NCBI RefSeq assembly: GCF_010122465.1 | Contig: NZ_WLZY01000013.1 | Span: 62,001 to 126,000, forward strand | Direction of reading: 5' to 3' | From: Phytoactinopolyspora mesophila | GTDB taxonomy: Bacteria > Actinomycetota > Actinomycetes > Jiangellales > Jiangellaceae | Length of the DNA stretch: 64,000 nucleotides | In this document: positions 10,133 to 61,969 of the stretch, in pieces | Numbering within the stretch: position 1 is the stretch's first letter | Layout: each line of letters opens with the position of its first letter | Notes under the pieces: model-generated | Databases searched by the model: none | Told to the model about the DNA's origin: nothing | Seen by the model: the letters and a program-made list of their open reading frames with translations, nothing else | Made by a program: the position numbers and the translations under genes

Positions 10133-11697
10133 ACTCTCAATTCTTCGACGGCACGGCCGAATCCGTTGCGGTGCTGCGGGACGCTGTCGCCTCGGTACTC
10201 GACATGCTGGCGTCGAACAGCCCTCACCAGCCCTTTCCCGCACGCACGCCCGCCGAGTTGCGCGCGGCGATCGAGGCGTTCGATCCGCTGCCGGCTCGTG
10301 GGGTGCCCTTCACCGACGTCATCAAAGAGGCCGGCGAAACCGTCGTGGCCAGCGGCGCCCGTGTGGTGGACCCTCGGTGCGCCGCTCACCTGCACGCACC
10401 GACGCTGATGAGCTCGGCGGCCACCGAACTCGCGATCGGAGTCACCAACCAGTCGATGGACTCCTTCGACCAAGCGCCGGCGGCCACGTATGCCGAGGAC
10501 CATCTGGTCCGCACTATTGCCGGCGTACTCGGTCTGCCGGAACAGGCCAGCGGTGTGATCACGTCAGGCGGAACGGCCTCGAACCTGCTGGGGCTGCTGC
10601 TGGCCCGGGATCGGGCCGCGGGCGGGGCCAACGTCACCGGCCTCCCGCCAGCTGCGGCGGGATGGCGGGTCCTCGCGTCACAGGCCGCGCACACGAGCGT
10701 CCGGCAGGCATGCGCCGTGCTCGGGCTGGGACGTGATGCCGTCGTTCCAGTCGATACCGACGGCTCCGGCCGCATCCGCCTCGAGGCCCTGGACGAGACC
10801 CTCCGGGCCGCCGAGCGACACGGCCATCAACCGATCGCCATCGTCGGAACAGCCGGCACGACAGACACCGGAGCCATCGACCCGCTCGACGCGCTCGCCC
10901 AGCGCGCGGCACAGTGCGGTGCCTGGTTTCACGTCGACGCCGCCGTCGGCGCCGGACTCGCACTCAGCCACCGGCTGGCACCGATGCTGCGCGGCATCGA
11001 GAAGGCCGATTCAGTCACCGCTGACCTGCACAAGCTGTGGTGGCAGCCGATCGGGGCGAGCATGCTGCTGGTCCGCGATGCCGGCTCGACGCACGGACTC
11101 CGGGAACCGGCCGATTATCTCAACCGGGCCGAGGACAACGACGTGCTCAACCTGGTCGATCGCTCACTCGACACATCCCGCCGCTTCGATGCCCTGAAGA
11201 TGCTCGTGTCGCTTCGCGCGACCGGCCGCGACCGGCTGGCCGGATTCGTCGAGCATCTGGTCGATCTCGCGGCCGAGGCGGGCCGGCTGATACATGCCCA
11301 CCCCGAGCTAGAGCTCGTTGTTCCTCCACAGAGCATCACCGTGCTGTTCCGCTGTCACCCGGCCGTGACCACGACGGACGACGACCTCGACGCGCTCAAT
11401 ACCGACGTGCAGCGCACGCTCCTCGGCGAGGGGCGAGCCGTCGTCGGCCGTACCAGGCTGCGCGGGCGCGTCGCCCTCAAACTCACCCTGGTCAATCCGA
11501 CGGCCACCGCCGAGGACATCGCTGAGCTGCTCGATCTAATCAGCGCCACCGGGCGACGCCGCACCGCGAACTGCCCGTCACCGCGCCCCCGTCCCGGCCC
11601 ACACTCCAGTTCGCCTCCCGAACCCGATCCCCCGAGCCGCGTTGATCATCACCAAAAGACACCCTTCGGACCGGTTGAGCGGAGCTATCGCCCATGA
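10129..11697 (+). CDS. rhbB: L-2,4-diaminobutyrate decarboxylase (RhbB type)
   Basis: Group II PLP decarboxylase that makes 1,3-diaminopropane, the amine core of rhizobactin/schizokinen-type siderophores. Seen: ITSGGTASNLLGLLLARD (~141), the cofactor Asp in WFHVDAAVGAGLALS (~265), and the PLP lysine in ADLHKLWWQPIGAS (~300). Similarity ends near residue 475 (AEDIAELLDLISATG). After that comes a Pro/Ser-rich tail of about 47 residues, whose last ~18 codons lie inside a dispersed palindromic repeat (11641-11702). The tail therefore looks acquired by repeat insertion or stop loss. Its TGA overlaps the ATG of the next gene. Confidence 0.9.
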   Translation: MNSQFFDGTAESVAVLRDAVASVLDMLASNSPHQPFPARTPAELRAAIEAFDPLPARGVPFTDVIKEAGETVVASGARVVDPRCAAHLHAPTLMSSAATELAIGVTNQSMDSFDQAPAATYAEDHLVRTIAGVLGLPEQASGVITSGGTASNLLGLLLARDRAAGGANVTGLPPAAAGWRVLASQAAHTSVRQACAVLGLGRDAVVPVDTDGSGRIRLEALDETLRAAERHGHQPIAIVGTAGTTDTGAIDPLDALAQRAAQCGAWFHVDAAVGAGLALSHRLAPMLRGIEKADSVTADLHKLWWQPIGASMLLVRDAGSTHGLREPADYLNRAEDNDVLNLVDRSLDTSRRFDALKMLVSLRATGRDRLAGFVEHLVDLAAEAGRLIHAHPELELVVPPQSITVLFRCHPAVTTTDDDLDALNTDVQRTLLGEGRAVVGRTRLRGRVALKLTLVNPTATAEDIAELLDLISATGRRRTANCPSPRPRPGPHSSSPPEPDPPSRVDHHQKTPFGPVERSYRP

Positions 11698-11702
11698 TCA
11701 AC
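11641..11702. repeat. 62-bp TGATCAT palindromic element, copy A (rhbB/rhbC junction)
   Basis: Ends GTTGATCAT (11641-11649) and ATGATCAAC (11694-11702) are exact inverted repeats. The reverse strand of 60883-60943 aligns to this stretch at roughly 50 of 62 positions, including ACACCCTTCGGA and ATCGCCCATGATCAAC. The element supplies the last codons of the decarboxylase and the start codon of the next gene. Confidence 0.8.
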
Positions 11703-13484
11703 ACGGATAAGGGCGACGCCGCCAAGCAGGCTGCCGATGACGCCGGTGTGCGTGCGCTGCTCACCTGTTGGGTCCGCGAGACGACGAACTGGTCGCTCGA
11801 ACCCCGCGCCCGGTTCCCGGAGCTGGCCGCGACACCCGCCGCACCCGTCCTGGTCGTTCCACTTCCGCACTGGAACGCACGGCTCGTCGCCGGTGTGACC
11901 CGGCAATCCCGGACTTTCCGGCATGAGCTCCGCTCACCTGTCCACGTCGTCGTCGGTGACCTGCCGCCGCGACCGATCAGGATCGAGACGCTGGCGGCGC
12001 TGCTCACCGACGAACTCGGGCCGGGCCCGAACGGCTCCTTGCTCAGCCGTATCCTCGACAGCACGTCAGCCGTCGCCGCTCACCTGCGGGCACGTGCCAC
12101 CGAGATAGACCGGCTGTGGAGCCCGGAACCGCTCAGCTTCGGCGAATCCGAACAGGCCCTGCTGCTCGGACACATGGCGCACCCGACCCCGAAGAGCCGC
12201 GGCGAGATGACCAGTTGCCAGCGCCTCGCGTACTCGCCGGAGACAGCCGGCCGATTCTCTCTTCGATGGCTGGCCGTAGAGCCTGATCTCGTCCGGCACG
12301 CCAGCGCGGTCGAGACGCCGGCACCGGAGCTCGCCGAGCACCTGCTTCGCAAGGACCCCGCGACCGACCTCGTCGCGCTCGATGCGATGCTCGACGCCGT
12401 CGGACCACGGATCCTCATACCGGCGCATCCCTTCGAGGCCGACCACCTCGCCGACGATCCGGCGACGGCACGGCTGTTCGGCAACGGCAGCGTCGTCGAT
12501 CTCGGCGAACTCGGCTCGCCGTACCTGCCGACCACGTCGGTGCGCACCGTCTACCGGCGTGAAGCGCCCTGGCAGCTGAAATTCTCGCTGCACGTGCGTG
12601 TCACCAACTCGATGCGAGTGACGCTGCCCAAGGAGCTGGACCGGGCGGTGGAGGCGGCCACCCTGGCGCTGACTGACGTGGGCCGCCAGGTCAGGGCCGT
12701 GGCACCTCGATTCACCCTGCTTCAGGATCCCGCCTACCTGACGGTCGCCGACGACGCCCAGCTCAGCAACGGCTTCTCGGTGCTGCTGCGGGAGAATCGC
12801 TGGCAGCCCGGAGCAGCGTGCGACGTCAGCGCGCTCACAACACTGTGCCAAGACCATCCATACGGCGGACGGAGCCGGCTCGCGGCGATCGTCGCCGCCA
12901 TCGCGCGGCGAGAACATCGCAGCGAGACCGACGTCGCCCGCGAGTGGTTCGCCCGCTTCTGCGACGTCGTCGTCCGTTCCCTCATCCGGCTGTACCTCGA
13001 CGTCGGGCTGTGTTTCGAGGCCCACCAGCAGAACACTCTCGTCGAACTCGACAGCGGATGGCCCGTCCACGGTGTCTACCGCGACAGCCAGGGCTATTTC
13101 CATCGCGAGGCGGCCCACGCCGATCTGACGCAGGTGATCCCGCGCCTCGGCGAAGCCACCGAGTCGATCTTCCCGGAGGCGCTGGCCGACGAGCGGCTCG
13201 TCTACTACCTGTTCGTCAACCTGACCCTCGGCGTCGTCAATGCTCTCGGCACAACCGTGGACGAAGACGTGCTGCTGCGCGACGTGAGGCGATTGCTGAA
13301 CGACGAACGCTCTCCCGGCGGCCGGTACCCGGCGTCCCTGCTGGACCGGTTGCTCGACGACGAGCGGTGGCCCTGCAAGGCCAATCTGCTCACGCGGGCA
13401 CATGACATGGACGAACTCGTGGGCGACATCGCGTCGCAATCCGTCTACGTCACACTGCCGAATCCGCTCCGGGAGGACCAGTGA
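11694..13484 (+). CDS. rhbC: NIS siderophore synthetase, IucA/IucC family (RhbC type)
   Basis: A 596-residue NRPS-independent siderophore (NIS) synthetase. It adenylates a citrate carboxyl and joins it to an amine or hydroxamate arm. Diagnostic parts: LLLGHMAHPTPKSRGEMTS (~157), with the ATP-binding His/Lys/Ser/Arg, LIPAHPFEADHLADD (~240), KFSLHVRVTNSMRVTLP (~297), and a C-terminal FerA/FhuF-like region with LCFEAHQQNTLVELD (~437). It is the first of two such synthetases in the operon, as expected for adding two arms to citrate. The ATG overlaps the decarboxylase stop (ATGA), so translation is coupled. Confidence 0.92.
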   Translation: MINTDKGDAAKQAADDAGVRALLTCWVRETTNWSLEPRARFPELAATPAAPVLVVPLPHWNARLVAGVTRQSRTFRHELRSPVHVVVGDLPPRPIRIETLAALLTDELGPGPNGSLLSRILDSTSAVAAHLRARATEIDRLWSPEPLSFGESEQALLLGHMAHPTPKSRGEMTSCQRLAYSPETAGRFSLRWLAVEPDLVRHASAVETPAPELAEHLLRKDPATDLVALDAMLDAVGPRILIPAHPFEADHLADDPATARLFGNGSVVDLGELGSPYLPTTSVRTVYRREAPWQLKFSLHVRVTNSMRVTLPKELDRAVEAATLALTDVGRQVRAVAPRFTLLQDPAYLTVADDAQLSNGFSVLLRENRWQPGAACDVSALTTLCQDHPYGGRSRLAAIVAAIARREHRSETDVAREWFARFCDVVVRSLIRLYLDVGLCFEAHQQNTLVELDSGWPVHGVYRDSQGYFHREAAHADLTQVIPRLGEATESIFPEALADERLVYYLFVNLTLGVVNALGTTVDEDVLLRDVRRLLNDERSPGGRYPASLLDRLLDDERWPCKANLLTRAHDMDELVGDIASQSVYVTLPNPLREDQ

Positions 13485-14263
13485 TGCAAGGGGAGACGCG
13501 ACGGAATCTCGGCCAGGGCTCGGCTCCGGGCATCGGCGAGCGAGGCACGAGCGAGTCCGCGGGCGGGGCCGAGATTCCGTCGCGTCTCCCCTTGCCACAG
13601 GTGGGGCCGGTACGCCCACACAGCTGGTCGGTGGTGCTGCCCGGGTCCACGGTGCGGATCGGTGTCGCCCCCGTCGAGGTGGACCGGCACGCCGAGCTGA
13701 TCCACGACTGGATGAACCGGCCACATGTCGTACCCTGGTGGCAGCTCGACCGTCCACTCGACGACGTGCGCGCGTATCTGCGCGGCCTGACCCACCTCCA
13801 GCCCTGGCTAGTGGCCGCGGACGGAGTCCCGTTCGGGTATGTCGAGACGTACCGCGCCACCGAGGATCCGCTGTCCTCGCACTATCGGGCCCGACCCACC
13901 GACGTGGGCTGGCATCTTCTCGTCGGGCCCCAAGAATTCATCGGCACCGGGACACCCCGGCTACTCGGGCGGGCCATGCTCGCCTACCTCCTGGGAGTCC
14001 ACGACGACGCGCGCAGCGACGGGCACCGTCATCGGGGTGACCGGGTGGTGTGCGAGCCCGACATCCGCAACACCCGCATGCACGCGTACTGCCGCAAGCT
14101 CGGCTTCCGCTCGATCGGAGAAGCCGAGCTGCCGGACAAGAAGGCGCTGCTGATGGCCTGCGAACGCACGGACTTCACCCGCGCCTGGCCCGGCGACGCA
14201 CGCCCCCGCACCGGAGACGCGCACCGCGCAGGCCCGGTCAGCTCGCCTGGAGGCACACCATGA
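13484..14263 (+). CDS. rhbD: Siderophore N-acyltransferase, IucB/RhbD type (GNAT)
   Basis: A 259-residue GNAT enzyme that acylates the hydroxylated diamine to give the hydroxamate. Family marks: HAELIHDWMNRPHVVPWW (~65), PWLVAADGVPFGYVETYR (~105), DVGWHLLVGPQEFIGTG with the acyl-CoA region, and VVCEPDIRNTRMHAYCRKLGF near the end. Homology starts only around residue 40. Residues 2-37 are encoded entirely by a 108-base palindrome (13487-13594) that keeps the frame open. The ATG at 13484 shares its A with the previous stop (TGATG), as coupling predicts, so the palindrome most likely inserted just behind an original start codon. Confidence 0.88.
   Translation: MQGETRRNLGQGSAPGIGERGTSESAGGAEIPSRLPLPQVGPVRPHSWSVVLPGSTVRIGVAPVEVDRHAELIHDWMNRPHVVPWWQLDRPLDDVRAYLRGLTHLQPWLVAADGVPFGYVETYRATEDPLSSHYRARPTDVGWHLLVGPQEFIGTGTPRLLGRAMLAYLLGVHDDARSDGHRHRGDRVVCEPDIRNTRMHAYCRKLGFRSIGEAELPDKKALLMACERTDFTRAWPGDARPRTGDAHRAGPVSSPGGTP
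13487..13594. repeat. 28-bp-arm inverted repeat inside the 5' end of rhbD
   Basis: Arms 13487-13514 and 13567-13594 are perfect reverse complements (beginning CAAGGGGAGACGCGACGG) around a 52-base GC-rich centre. The whole unit is 108 bases, exactly 36 codons, with no stop in the gene's frame. Folded in mRNA it would place a very strong hairpin right after the start codon. No second copy was found in the window. Confidence 0.85.
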
Positions 14264-15651: not shown

Positions 15652-17454
15652 ATGGATACCCCGACCATCGACGCACTCCGGCTTCAGCCCTGGACCCGGG
15701 CCAACCGCGAGCTTCTCGCCAAGGCACTGACCGAGTTCATGTACGAGGAGATCATCGACCCGGACGTCATCAGCCATGAGAAGCTGGTCTACGAACTGCC
15801 TGGCGGCACCCTGACCGCCCGCGCCAAGCAGCGCTCGATGGGATGGTGGCGAGTCGATCCGGAGTCGCTGTCCTGGAGATCCGCGGGCACGAATCAACGA
15901 GGCGAAGACGCCGCAGCCGACGATCTTCCCGACACCGCGCAGGTGCTCGCCCAGATCCTGACCGCCCAGGGGGTCAAGCCGGCCACCACCGCGGGCCTGG
16001 TTTCCGAACTCATGTCCACCCTGTTGTCCGACACCTGGCAAGTGGGCCGCGGCCGTCCTTCTGCCGAGCTCACCGGACTCGAACCAGTCCTGGTCGAGGG
16101 CGAGCTGCGCGGACATCCGTGGATCGTCGCCAGCAAAGGGCGGATCGGCTTCGATGCCGTCGACTTCCTCTCCTACGCCCCGGAGGCCGGATCCGATCTC
16201 CGGCTGTTGTGGCTGGCGGCCGACCCGTCGATCGCGGCTACTCGCTCCATCCCCGAGATCGGCCACCATCAGGTCGTCCTGGAGCAGGTCGGCGCCTCCG
16301 AGTTCAAGCGGATGCGGGCGCTGGCGCAACTGGCCGGGCTCGACCCCGACACGTGTGTTTACGTGCCAGTCCATCCATGGCAATGGACCAACCGGATCCT
16401 GCCGCTCCACGCCGGAGAGCTGGCCCGCGGCACCCTCATCCCGCTCGGAGAGGGACTGGCGCGTTACCGCCCGCAACTGGCCATTCGCACACTCACCGAC
16501 CTGGACCACCCGGAGCGTCGTTACCTCAAGCTCCCGGTCTCGGTCCTGAACACCTCGGTGTACCGGGGGCTGCCGAGGGAACGCACACTCGCCGCCCCGG
16601 CGCTGACCGAGTGGCTCACCGGGATCGCAAGATCAGACGCCTTCCTCCAGGAGACCGGCGTCGTGTTCCTGGGCGAGGTCGCCTCGGTCAGCATCGCCCA
16701 TCCGGCCTACGAGGCGATCCCCGGTGTTCCCTACCAGCACACCGAAATGCTCGGCGCGATCTGGCGCGAATCGGTTCAGCCGCATCTGCGCCCTGGTGAG
16801 CAGGCGGTCTCCCTCGCCGCTCTCCTGCACGTCGATCCCGAAGGTGTGCCGTTCACCGGTTCGCTGATCAAACAGAGCGGTTTGGACGCCGCCGAGTGGT
16901 TCCAGCGTTTACACGGCGCCGTTCTGCCGCCTCTTCTGCACATGCTCTACAAGTACGGCACGATGTTCTCTCCGCACGGGCAGAACTGCATGATCGCGCA
17001 TCACGACGGTGTTCCCACCCGCCTGGTGGTGAAAGACTTCGTCGACGACGTCGCGATCTGCTCACGGGAGCTGCCGGAACTACGCGACATGGATCCGCAG
17101 GTGCGCACCGCACTGGCCGACGTCACACTGGCCCCGGAGACGCTGATCAAGTACCTGCAGAACGGTCTGTTGATTTGTGTCTACCGGTATCTGGCCGAAA
17201 TCGGCGCGGACATGCTGGGGGTGCCGGAGGCAACGTTCTGGAGCCTGGCCCGTCAGGAGCTCGTGGACTACCAGGAACGGTTCGAGGGCGAGTTGTCCGA
17301 GCGGTTCACCATGTTCGATCTGGAGACACCCACGTTCCCGAAACTGTGTCTGAACCGGCTGCGGCTCTTCGAGCGCGGATACGCCGACGATCCCGAGCGT
17401 CCGGTCATCACGGCCGTCGGCGTCGTCAGCAACCCCCTCGCCCCGCCCCGGTGA
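15652..17454 (+). CDS. rhbF: NIS siderophore synthetase, IucC family (RhbF type)
   Basis: A 600-residue IucA/IucC-family ligase, second in the operon, expected to attach the second hydroxamate arm to the citrate half-product. Marks: GHPWIVASKGRIGFDAVDFL (~159; the Lys/Arg ATP-binding block), VPVHPWQWTNRIL (~239), LKLPVSVLNTSVYRGLPR (~293), and YGTMFSPHGQNCMIAHHDGV in the C-terminal domain (~436). The ATG at 15652 is preceded by GCGGAG and starts the conserved region; an earlier ATG at 15589 adds 21 unconserved residues. A 72-base gap separates it from rhbE, the loosest junction of the operon. A palindrome covers its stop codon. Confidence 0.92.
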   Translation: MDTPTIDALRLQPWTRANRELLAKALTEFMYEEIIDPDVISHEKLVYELPGGTLTARAKQRSMGWWRVDPESLSWRSAGTNQRGEDAAADDLPDTAQVLAQILTAQGVKPATTAGLVSELMSTLLSDTWQVGRGRPSAELTGLEPVLVEGELRGHPWIVASKGRIGFDAVDFLSYAPEAGSDLRLLWLAADPSIAATRSIPEIGHHQVVLEQVGASEFKRMRALAQLAGLDPDTCVYVPVHPWQWTNRILPLHAGELARGTLIPLGEGLARYRPQLAIRTLTDLDHPERRYLKLPVSVLNTSVYRGLPRERTLAAPALTEWLTGIARSDAFLQETGVVFLGEVASVSIAHPAYEAIPGVPYQHTEMLGAIWRESVQPHLRPGEQAVSLAALLHVDPEGVPFTGSLIKQSGLDAAEWFQRLHGAVLPPLLHMLYKYGTMFSPHGQNCMIAHHDGVPTRLVVKDFVDDVAICSRELPELRDMDPQVRTALADVTLAPETLIKYLQNGLLICVYRYLAEIGADMLGVPEATFWSLARQELVDYQERFEGELSERFTMFDLETPTFPKLCLNRLRLFERGYADDPERPVITAVGVVSNPLAPPR

Positions 17455-17541
17455 TCGACAGTGGGGTGTGGCTGTCATACGACGACCACACCCCACTGTC
17501 GATCACCTCATAGCGACCACACCGCACTGTCGATCACCGAG
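17450..17541. repeat. Long inverted repeat, GGTGATCG-type family (copy 2)
   Basis: Arms 17450-17471 and 17486-17507 are perfect inverted repeats (GGTGATCGACAGTGGGGTGT plus GG). A third copy, GACCACACCGCACTGTCGAT, follows at about 17515-17534 in the same direction as the second arm. The first arm includes the stop codon of rhbF. It shares order and sequence with 2277-2367. Its position between convergent genes fits a two-way terminator. Confidence 0.75.
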
Positions 17542-24646: not shown

Positions 24647-24704
24647 CCCATGATCATTGACGGTTGACCACCGGATTCGGTGGTCAACCGTCAATGATCA
24701 TGGG
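24647..24704. repeat. 27-bp perfect hairpin with TGATCAT core, between convergent genes
   Basis: Arms 24647-24673 and 24678-24704 are exact inverted repeats (CCCATGATCATTGACGGTTG and on) with a four-base loop GATT. The right arm includes the stop and last codons of the sensor-kinase gene. It is well placed as a two-way terminator and has no T run. It shares the ATGATCAT ends with the repeats at 11641, 28161, 58947, 60882 and 61917. Confidence 0.85.
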
Positions 24705-60659: not shown

Positions 60660-61597
60660 CAGGTTCCGTCCGGGTGGGCTCGGGCGACGCTTTGCATCTC
60701 GGCGAGCAGGTATCCCATGGCCTCGGTGTGGACGCCGTCGCGTCCCGCCCGGCCGCCGACGCCCGGCAACGGCGACACGTCGGGAATCTGAAGCGTCGCA
60801 GCCCGGAACACCTGCGCCAGCACCTCGTCGAACTCCTCACGCACCGACGCCAGATCAATCCCAACCCCGACACCCCCGCCGTGTTGATCATGGGCGATAA
60901 CTTCTCCAGCCGGTTCCGAAGGGTGTTTTTGCCCATGATCAACAGGGTGGGTGAAGAGCTCGTCGACGTACGGCCAGACCGTCTCCAGCCCGGCAGCTAT
61001 CCGCTGCCGCGAGTACGGCGTGCCGTCGCCCAGTCGGACGGCCCACTGAGCGACGTAGTCGCGGTGATACCTCAGCTCCTTGACACCTTTCGCGGCGATC
61101 GCCGACAGCACCGGATCAGGTGAGCCGGTGAGCCGGCTGAACACGGCCAGCCGCCAGGTGGCGAACACCAGCAACCGGGCGATCAGCTCGCCGAAATCGC
61201 CGTTCTCCAGCTCCGCCAGGCGGACGTTGCGGAACTCGTGCTCGTCGCGGAAGAACGCGAGGTGGTCCTCGCCGGCAGCACCGGACGCCGCGGCCGAGCG
61301 GGCCAGCAGCAGCCTGGCCTGGCCGAGCAGGTCGAGGGCGATGTTGGCGATCGCGACCTCCTCTTCCAGCTCGGGCAGGCGGGTGCACCATTGCTGGAGC
61401 CGATGCGACATGATCAGCGCGTCGTCGCCCAGCATCAGGCAGTAGGTAGCGAGCTCATCCGCATCGACCCCGTCGGGCAGCGTCGTGTCGATACCGGACA
61501 GCGGGTCCTCGAACCCGGTGCCGAATGCCCACCTGGCGTCGTCGACACCTTCGGTGATCGACTCGTAGGCGTTGTCGAAACCCATCTCCGGCCTCAC
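60656..61597 (-). CDS. paaC: Phenylacetyl-CoA epoxidase structural subunit PaaC, with a repeat-derived insert
   Basis: A 313-residue ferritin-like subunit without a di-iron site. It supports PaaA in the oxygenase complex. Conserved: YCLMLGDDALIMSHRLQQWC, EEEVAIANIALDLLGQARLL, LVFATWRLAVFSRLTGSPDP, and VKELRYHRDYVAQWAVRLGD. Between YVDELFTHP and GVGVGIDLASV (residues ~218-239) lie about 21 residues (VDHGQKHPSEPAGEVIAHDQ H) encoded exactly by a dispersed palindromic element (60882-60944). The 63-base element keeps the frame. The GTG at 61597 overlaps the paaB stop. The insert falls at a likely surface loop, so the protein may still work. Confidence 0.93.
   Translation of the reverse strand: MRPEMGFDNAYESITEGVDDARWAFGTGFEDPLSGIDTTLPDGVDADELATYCLMLGDDALIMSHRLQQWCTRLPELEEEVAIANIALDLLGQARLLLARSAAASGAAGEDHLAFFRDEHEFRNVRLAELENGDFGELIARLLVFATWRLAVFSRLTGSPDPVLSAIAAKGVKELRYHRDYVAQWAVRLGDGTPYSRQRIAAGLETVWPYVDELFTHPVDHGQKHPSEPAGEVIAHDQHGGGVGVGIDLASVREEFDEVLAQVFRAATLQIPDVSPLPGVGGRAGRDGVHTEAMGYLLAEMQSVARAHPDGTW
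60882..60944. repeat. 63-bp TGATCAT palindromic element, copy B, inside paaC
   Basis: Ends TGTTGATCATGGGC (60882-60895) and GCCCATGATCAACA (60931-60944) are perfect inverted repeats. Its reverse strand aligns to 11641-11702. Exactly 21 codons in the paaC frame. Confidence 0.88.
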
Positions 61598-61896: not shown

Positions 61897-61916
61897 CTCA
61901 CCTCTCCCTTCATCGG

Positions 61917-61969
61917 TGATCATGAGCGGTTTCGTGTCGCTATAGCGACGTGAATCCGCTCATGATCAC
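61917..61969. repeat. Nested perfect palindrome between paaA and paaB
   Basis: Outer arms GTGATCATGAGCGG (61917-61930) and CCGCTCATGATCAC (61956-61969), inner palindrome GTCGCTATAGCGAC (61936-61949). It covers the paaA stop codon and lies just upstream of paaB. As it sits within an operon, it is more likely an mRNA processing/stability hairpin or a dispersed element than a full terminator. Shares the TGATCATG ends with other repeats here. Confidence 0.8.

Follow-up and report, generated by a model that had tools for sequence, protein, structure and literature searches.

The closest described counterparts of the hairpin analysed here are the Rickettsia palindromic elements (RPEs), hairpins of about 100–150 bp that lie between genes and also in frame within unrelated protein genes, where they are tolerated (PMC10969869, PMC2229807). 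As described, RPEs carry terminal inverted repeats and encode a conserved peptide. Their repeats lose identity over time (PMC6649704). REPs measure 20–40 bp, have stems of 6–13 bp and are marked at one end by GTAG or CGTC (PMC3733652). The mitochondria of Nematomorpha carry long perfect inverted repeats in translated genes, both arms encoding conserved protein (PMC6649704). Arm homogenisation and spacer inversion have been explained by the polymerase switching template from one inverted repeat to the other (PMC8604942), a process also proposed to maintain hairpin stems (PMC8794818). The hairpin at the start of the rhbD gene of Phytoactinopolyspora mesophila is, in our assessment, probably an in-frame insert of a palindromic element dispersed among the Jiangellaceae, whose arms are likely kept paired by template switching. 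By analogy, its closest reading would be that of an interspersed palindromic element comparable to RPEs, but with site-specific arms.

The hairpin comprises two exactly complementary 29-bp arms flanking a 52-nt interior, 110 nt in total (Table 1). The original prediction had described a 108-base perfect palindrome with 28-base perfect arms; the inverted repeat is real and its arms are perfect, but they measure 29 bp, not 28, and the 52 nt in the middle do not form a palindrome. The claim of 36 codons without a stop holds, positions 13487–13594 being 108 stop-free nucleotides, as does that of a strong hairpin, the RNA being predicted to fold very stably (folding z-score −7.2, with 0 of 200 shuffles as stable). 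The DNA folding z-scores are −9.4 and −9.1 for the two strands, again with 0 of 200 shuffles as stable for each. Within the window (the whole 64,000-nt stretch analysed), no other perfect inverted repeat with a spacer of up to 120 exceeds it, and its length is above chance because arms reach only 15 bp in 60 dinucleotide-shuffled windows. Searches of Rfam recovered two tRNAs only in the window and, for seven copies of the element, six matches, none reaching the gathering score. Further long perfect inverted repeats occur at 24647–24704, 2277–2367, 17450–17507 and 1227–1294 (arms of 27, 24, 22 and 21 bp), all at or just past the ends of long reading frames and with interiors unlike that of the Jiangellaceae family. 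The hairpins at 2277–2367, 17450–17507, 60882–60944 and 61916–61969 have a common TGATC-containing outer end and differing inner parts; they may represent another hairpin family, one in which the outer part is conserved.

Table 1. Features of the rhbD locus (window positions) and copies of the element found in frame between Pfam domains elsewhere.
Feature	Positions	Strand	Remark
IucA/IucC-type synthetase gene	11694–13484	+	stop overlaps the rhbD ATG
GGGAGG, Shine-Dalgarno-like	13471–13476	+	7 nt upstream of ATG 13484, outside the stem; read from sequence
rhbD-type GNAT acyltransferase gene	13484–14263	+	insert = codons 2–37
5′ arm, 29 nt	13486–13514	+	first base is the G of the ATG
Conserved interior ("loop"), 52 nt	13515–13566	+	defines the dispersed family
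Inner mini-hairpin of the interior	13534–13559	+	CGGC-GA-GC[GAGGCACGA]GC-GA-GTCCG
3′ arm, 29 nt	13567–13595	+	exact reverse complement of the 5′ arm
In-frame GTG directly 3′ of the insert	13601–13603	+	candidate alternative start; read from sequence
Copy L149			linker between two ABC ATPase halves
Copy L167			linker between ABC membrane and ATPase parts
Copy L171			linker in a CobB/CobQ-type protein
Copy L189			linker between permease and ATPase

The host operon encodes, in the order recognised by Pfam, an aminotransferase, a decarboxylase, an IucA/IucC protein, the GNAT acyltransferase, a lysine/ornithine monooxygenase and another IucA/IucC protein, which we take to be the gene order of a rhizobactin-type rhb cluster. 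RhbD is the GNAT acyltransferase of this siderophore operon (PF13523, E 3.5e-44); its frame runs uninterrupted from the ATG at 13484–13486 to the stop at 14261–14263, and the TGA of the upstream gene (13482–13484) overlaps that ATG. As had been proposed, the element looks like an insertion right behind the coupled start codon: it is missing at all 47 other rhbD-homologue loci (48 including its own), a set in which some species are probably counted twice, as named and unnamed, and some homologues are distant. The N-terminus is also non-homologous, as claimed, the conserved block of RhbD starting only at W48, and conservation of the same N-terminal residues in unrelated genera, looked for at those loci, was seen at 0 of 47. 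In the predicted structure, with a 12-sequence alignment as input, residues 1–41 have pLDDT values below 50; the insert thus modelled probably adds a disordered N-terminal tail, and RhbD would tolerate it as such ahead of the conserved domain. The closest named relatives belong to Phytoactinopolyspora, followed by Jiangella. The relatives of rhbD, with 59–68% protein identity, are too distant to provide an empty site at the nucleotide level. No movement event was caught among those compared, and inspection of the window copy by eye, with no close empty site to compare, showed no target-site duplication.

The rhbD hairpin is one member of a large family. Searching its own genome with the region by blastn, with 40 of 74 candidates scored, returned at least 36 matches, itself and its inverse included, mostly to the interior. 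Alignment of the copies shows a conserved interior and arms, mostly 18–33 bp long, that differ between sites yet pair. The identity of the family resides in the interior of about 50 nt, with arms that are site-specific but complementary. A covariance model, R1, built from 35 rows that include the window copy, matches this copy at 13493–13588 (E 4.6e-16) and gives at least 81 matches in the same genome (E ≤ 0.01) and matches in at least 19 of the 22 Jiangellaceae genomes. The inner mini-hairpin contains tandem GA steps; it shows compensated changes in copies L032, L034 and L025, and a shorter inner stem with unchanged apical loop in L036, L093 and L110. Copies L148, L152, L154 and L182 are arranged in tandem or partial tandem; in the first three, the left arm and interior are repeated and the matching right arm is present on one copy only. 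The hairpin family was not found described in the literature searched, which left out most subscription journals.

Under stricter filters, with 14 candidates scored per genome, R1 has matches in at least 20 of the 296 genomes of the class, among them a single one outside the family, G117, whose copy (L272) has exact arms of 22 bp around the same apical motif. The 15-mer GAGCGAGGAACGAGC is present in 56 of the 296 genomes (19 of the 22 Jiangellaceae and 37 others), and its reversed-letter control in only 2. Eleven other loci with this 15-mer outside the Jiangellaceae were inspected and long arms were found at none; among 18 further outside loci from six genomes, three of the five G064 copies (L321–L323, in another family) have arms of 10–16 bp and weak R1 matches (E 0.0005–0.001). 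At eight loci of G102 no arm score exceeded 10, and G290, also outside, has 30 places with the 15-mer. Related hairpins may thus exist outside the Jiangellaceae, in G064, and the apical motif common to the G117 and G064 hairpins hints at a kind wider than this family. Plasmid and phage collections contained nothing similar to copy L016 at blastn sensitivity. We make no claim of viral carriage: a 21-letter core pattern occurs in seven IMG/VR contigs, but the model matches, given by five of the seven, are weak (lowest E 0.035, no score above 22.7 bits).

The arms of these dispersed copies covary. Across 35 copies, arm covariation is 0.889, against 0.216 after shuffling and no more than 0.208 after sliding, and 92.4% of 765 arm cells are paired, against 56.3% when shuffled; these copies were chosen among 48 for having their arms in register, which selects the level of pairing but not the letter differences. 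Pairs with double changes number 21 of 22, little above shuffles (18.8). No mismatch at all is found in the arms of 53 of the 109 scored copies. At one orthologous site, L128 has arms clearly homologous to those of L211, L134 and L142 and an inverted interior. In all, 5 of the 17 orthologous groups have the interior in both orientations; the arms are clearly homologous in this group and not clearly so in the other four. Template switching during replication, by rewriting one arm from the other and occasionally inverting the interior, would explain both the covarying arms and the inverted interior. The repeats for which this process has been described (PMC8604942, PMC8794818) resemble the present family in multi-base compensatory change and, in PMC8604942, spacer inversion, and would do so in arm homogenisation; they are single-locus repeats within genes of yeast, or else RNA-gene stems, whereas here a dispersed family has a conserved interior of about 50 nt. 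The inverted spacers reported in PMC8604942 measure 2–5 bp, so that flipping an interior of 50 nt in this way would be an extrapolation.

Orthologous sites qualify the argument for arm rewriting. A first comparison covered 11 orthologous groups, some cut to two members, and the full set has 17. In eight orthologous Jiangella groups, 440 positions compared pairwise, hence not independent, comprise 341 that are the same, 79 compensated, both arms having changed with pairing retained, 17 one-sided and 3 other. The corresponding figures for all 17 groups are 459, 236, 40 and 17, and the groups left out of, or shortened in, the 11-group comparison contribute 143 compensated, 21 one-sided and 14 other. 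The control of 28 non-orthologous Jiangella pairs (560 positions) gives 389 same, 157 compensated, 10 one-sided and 4 other, and a second control, taking non-orthologous first members from every group, gives 1039, 1316, 126 and 116. Since non-orthologous pairs agree at 389 of 560 positions, against 341 of 440 for orthologous ones, Jiangella arms follow a genus-wide pattern, with orthologous arms just slightly more similar. The ratio of 79 compensated to 17 one-sided differences at orthologous sites resembles homogenisation, yet that of 157 to 10 in the control shows that any two paired hairpins differ mostly in this compensated way, which weakens the arm-rewriting argument. Groups are also unequal: L209, L125, L097 and L096 keep 106 of 120 positions and L210/L131 keep 8 of 20. 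Judging from these sequences, much of the arm difference could come instead from independent insertion or from exchange between copies.

The genomic position of the copies bears on a different explanation, namely that the hairpins are functional RNA structures of gene 3′ ends (terminators, RNase III sites or stabilisers) whose arms are kept paired through selection acting at the RNA level, and that the copy in rhbD is a stray. In three genomes, with gene context taken from crude GC3-based gene calls, 63 copies lie between predicted genes: 28 in convergent, 33 in tandem and 2 in divergent gaps, compared with 9, 38 and 9 of 56 control gaps (p 0.0013 for convergent, 0.024 for divergent). Eleven more copies lie inside predicted frames and four could not be placed. 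Of the 61 copies with a measurable distance, 41 begin no more than 50 nt from a stop codon, or overlap one. Copies therefore favour gene 3′ ends, as this explanation would have it, and one intergenic hairpin is retained at the same site in four Jiangella genomes despite diverged flanks. On the strand of the interior, G.T mismatches also outnumber A.C ones, 37 to 13, in 109 of 116 distinct copies (seven with arm scores below 12 are omitted, and five partial matches, L233 and L113 were not entered). Template switching alone does not predict this bias. The two classes look similar in a sample of 35 copies (19 against 13) and stand at 32 against 9 in 87; for the bias, the p-value of 0.0009 is too small, orthologues having been counted separately. 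We nevertheless regard RNA selection at 3′ ends as rather unlikely. The G.T cells are only 37 of 2609, and their excess is gone when mismatches are re-read on the sense strand of the neighbouring or containing gene (13 against 11 in 45 copies), relative to which the interior occurs in both orientations (22 sense, 23 antisense). No T-run was noticed behind the stems when flanks were viewed by eye, and several copies lie within reading frames.

Among the 15 copies listed in reading frames, four are in frame in linkers between Pfam domains (Table 1). The in-frame status of L151, L159, L169, L184 and L186 is less clear, L186 lying within a Hydant_A_C match and L151 within an MTHFR domain, and the frames around L150, L163, L191, L198, L208 and L216 look spurious or overextended. 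A fused hydantoinase A/B gene contains the element in four genomes, G011, G009, G003 and G001, always in one region; the G001 copy has its interior reversed. The same gene in G004 contains a longer and weaker relative (L233, 1858–2004, E 2.5e-5) with extra sequence inside the interior.

The original prediction saw in the hairpin a device of rhbD itself, damping translation or moving initiation downstream, for which GTG 13601 is the candidate in our analysis. Its stem does start at the G of the ATG, so that initiation on the folded message should be hard, its folding energy with flanks is about −93 kcal/mol, and a start at GTG 13601 would give an N-terminus as long as in relatives. Such a role is nonetheless improbable: the frame is open across the insert, GGGAGG and the stop–start overlap belong to ATG 13484, no Shine-Dalgarno-like motif was seen ahead of GTG 13601, and the same interior recurs at unrelated loci by the dozen, most of them close to the 3′ ends of genes and some between domains. 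Translation from ATG 13484 across the insert appears appreciably likelier than a downstream start; a ribosome finishing at the overlapping upstream stop may open the base of the stem.

A mobile interior that inserts alone into the tips of pre-existing palindromic hairpins would explain locus-specific arms and both orientations, in line with the orientation differences among orthologous groups, with one site at which G018 has a complete element and G017 fused arms without interior, and with a second fused-arm palindrome in G017, but it is very doubtful, considering that G021 has neither arms nor interior at that site, that the exact fused-Jiangella-arm pattern (which misses the G018/G017/G021 site) occurs at a single place in 12 genomes, that in-gene copies have arms, and that L161 and L163 share arms besides the interior. 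These two copies have the innermost 19 bp of the arm in common and unrelated flanks, an argument for dispersal of the hairpin as a whole.

A dispersed palindromic element with arms kept paired by template switching remains our preferred reading, and it would have spread as a mobile unit. The Y1 transposase of the TnpA_REP type (PF01797), the class searched for, is detected in 0 of the 22 genomes, with 5 of 14 control genomes positive. The element resembles RPEs, by description only, in its in-frame insertion (rhbD, L149, L167, L171, L189). RPEs have shared terminal repeats and a conserved peptide, whereas here the interior alone is common and the arms are unlike in most copies, L161 and L163 being among the few that share them. 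RPE repeats decay while these arms stay complementary, and the host is a free-living high-GC actinomycete instead of Rickettsia. With REPs the family shares its dispersed, mostly intergenic palindromes; it differs in its arms of about 20–30 bp without conserved stem sequence and in the lack of the Y1 transposase, and no GTAG or CGTC tag was seen by eye at the ends of the window copy. Unlike MITEs, it shows no conserved terminal inverted repeats, the ends not being conserved among the 42 copies of this genome viewed. In contrast to the coding palindromes of Nematomorpha, the rhbD insert is extra, non-homologous sequence. More tentatively, and we think improbably, the mobile element might be defined by a folded single-strand interior and moved as such, its arms being rewritten after landing by template switching. 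Such a folded strand would yield the G.T bias, as could mutation bias or the non-independence of orthologues, and arm regeneration of this kind would allow the element to invert, to shed its interior and to persist within protein genes.

The family as a whole is of greater interest than the lone palindrome at rhbD. Rickettsia is the best-known source of in-frame palindromic elements; here a family of them, with arms that are site-specific yet match each other, occurs in free-living actinomycetes, across many related species. It could serve as a natural record of arm rewriting, of interior flips and losses, and of the entry of hairpin-coded peptides into proteins. It also indicates that hairpin covariation, commonly read as proof of a functional RNA, can arise otherwise.
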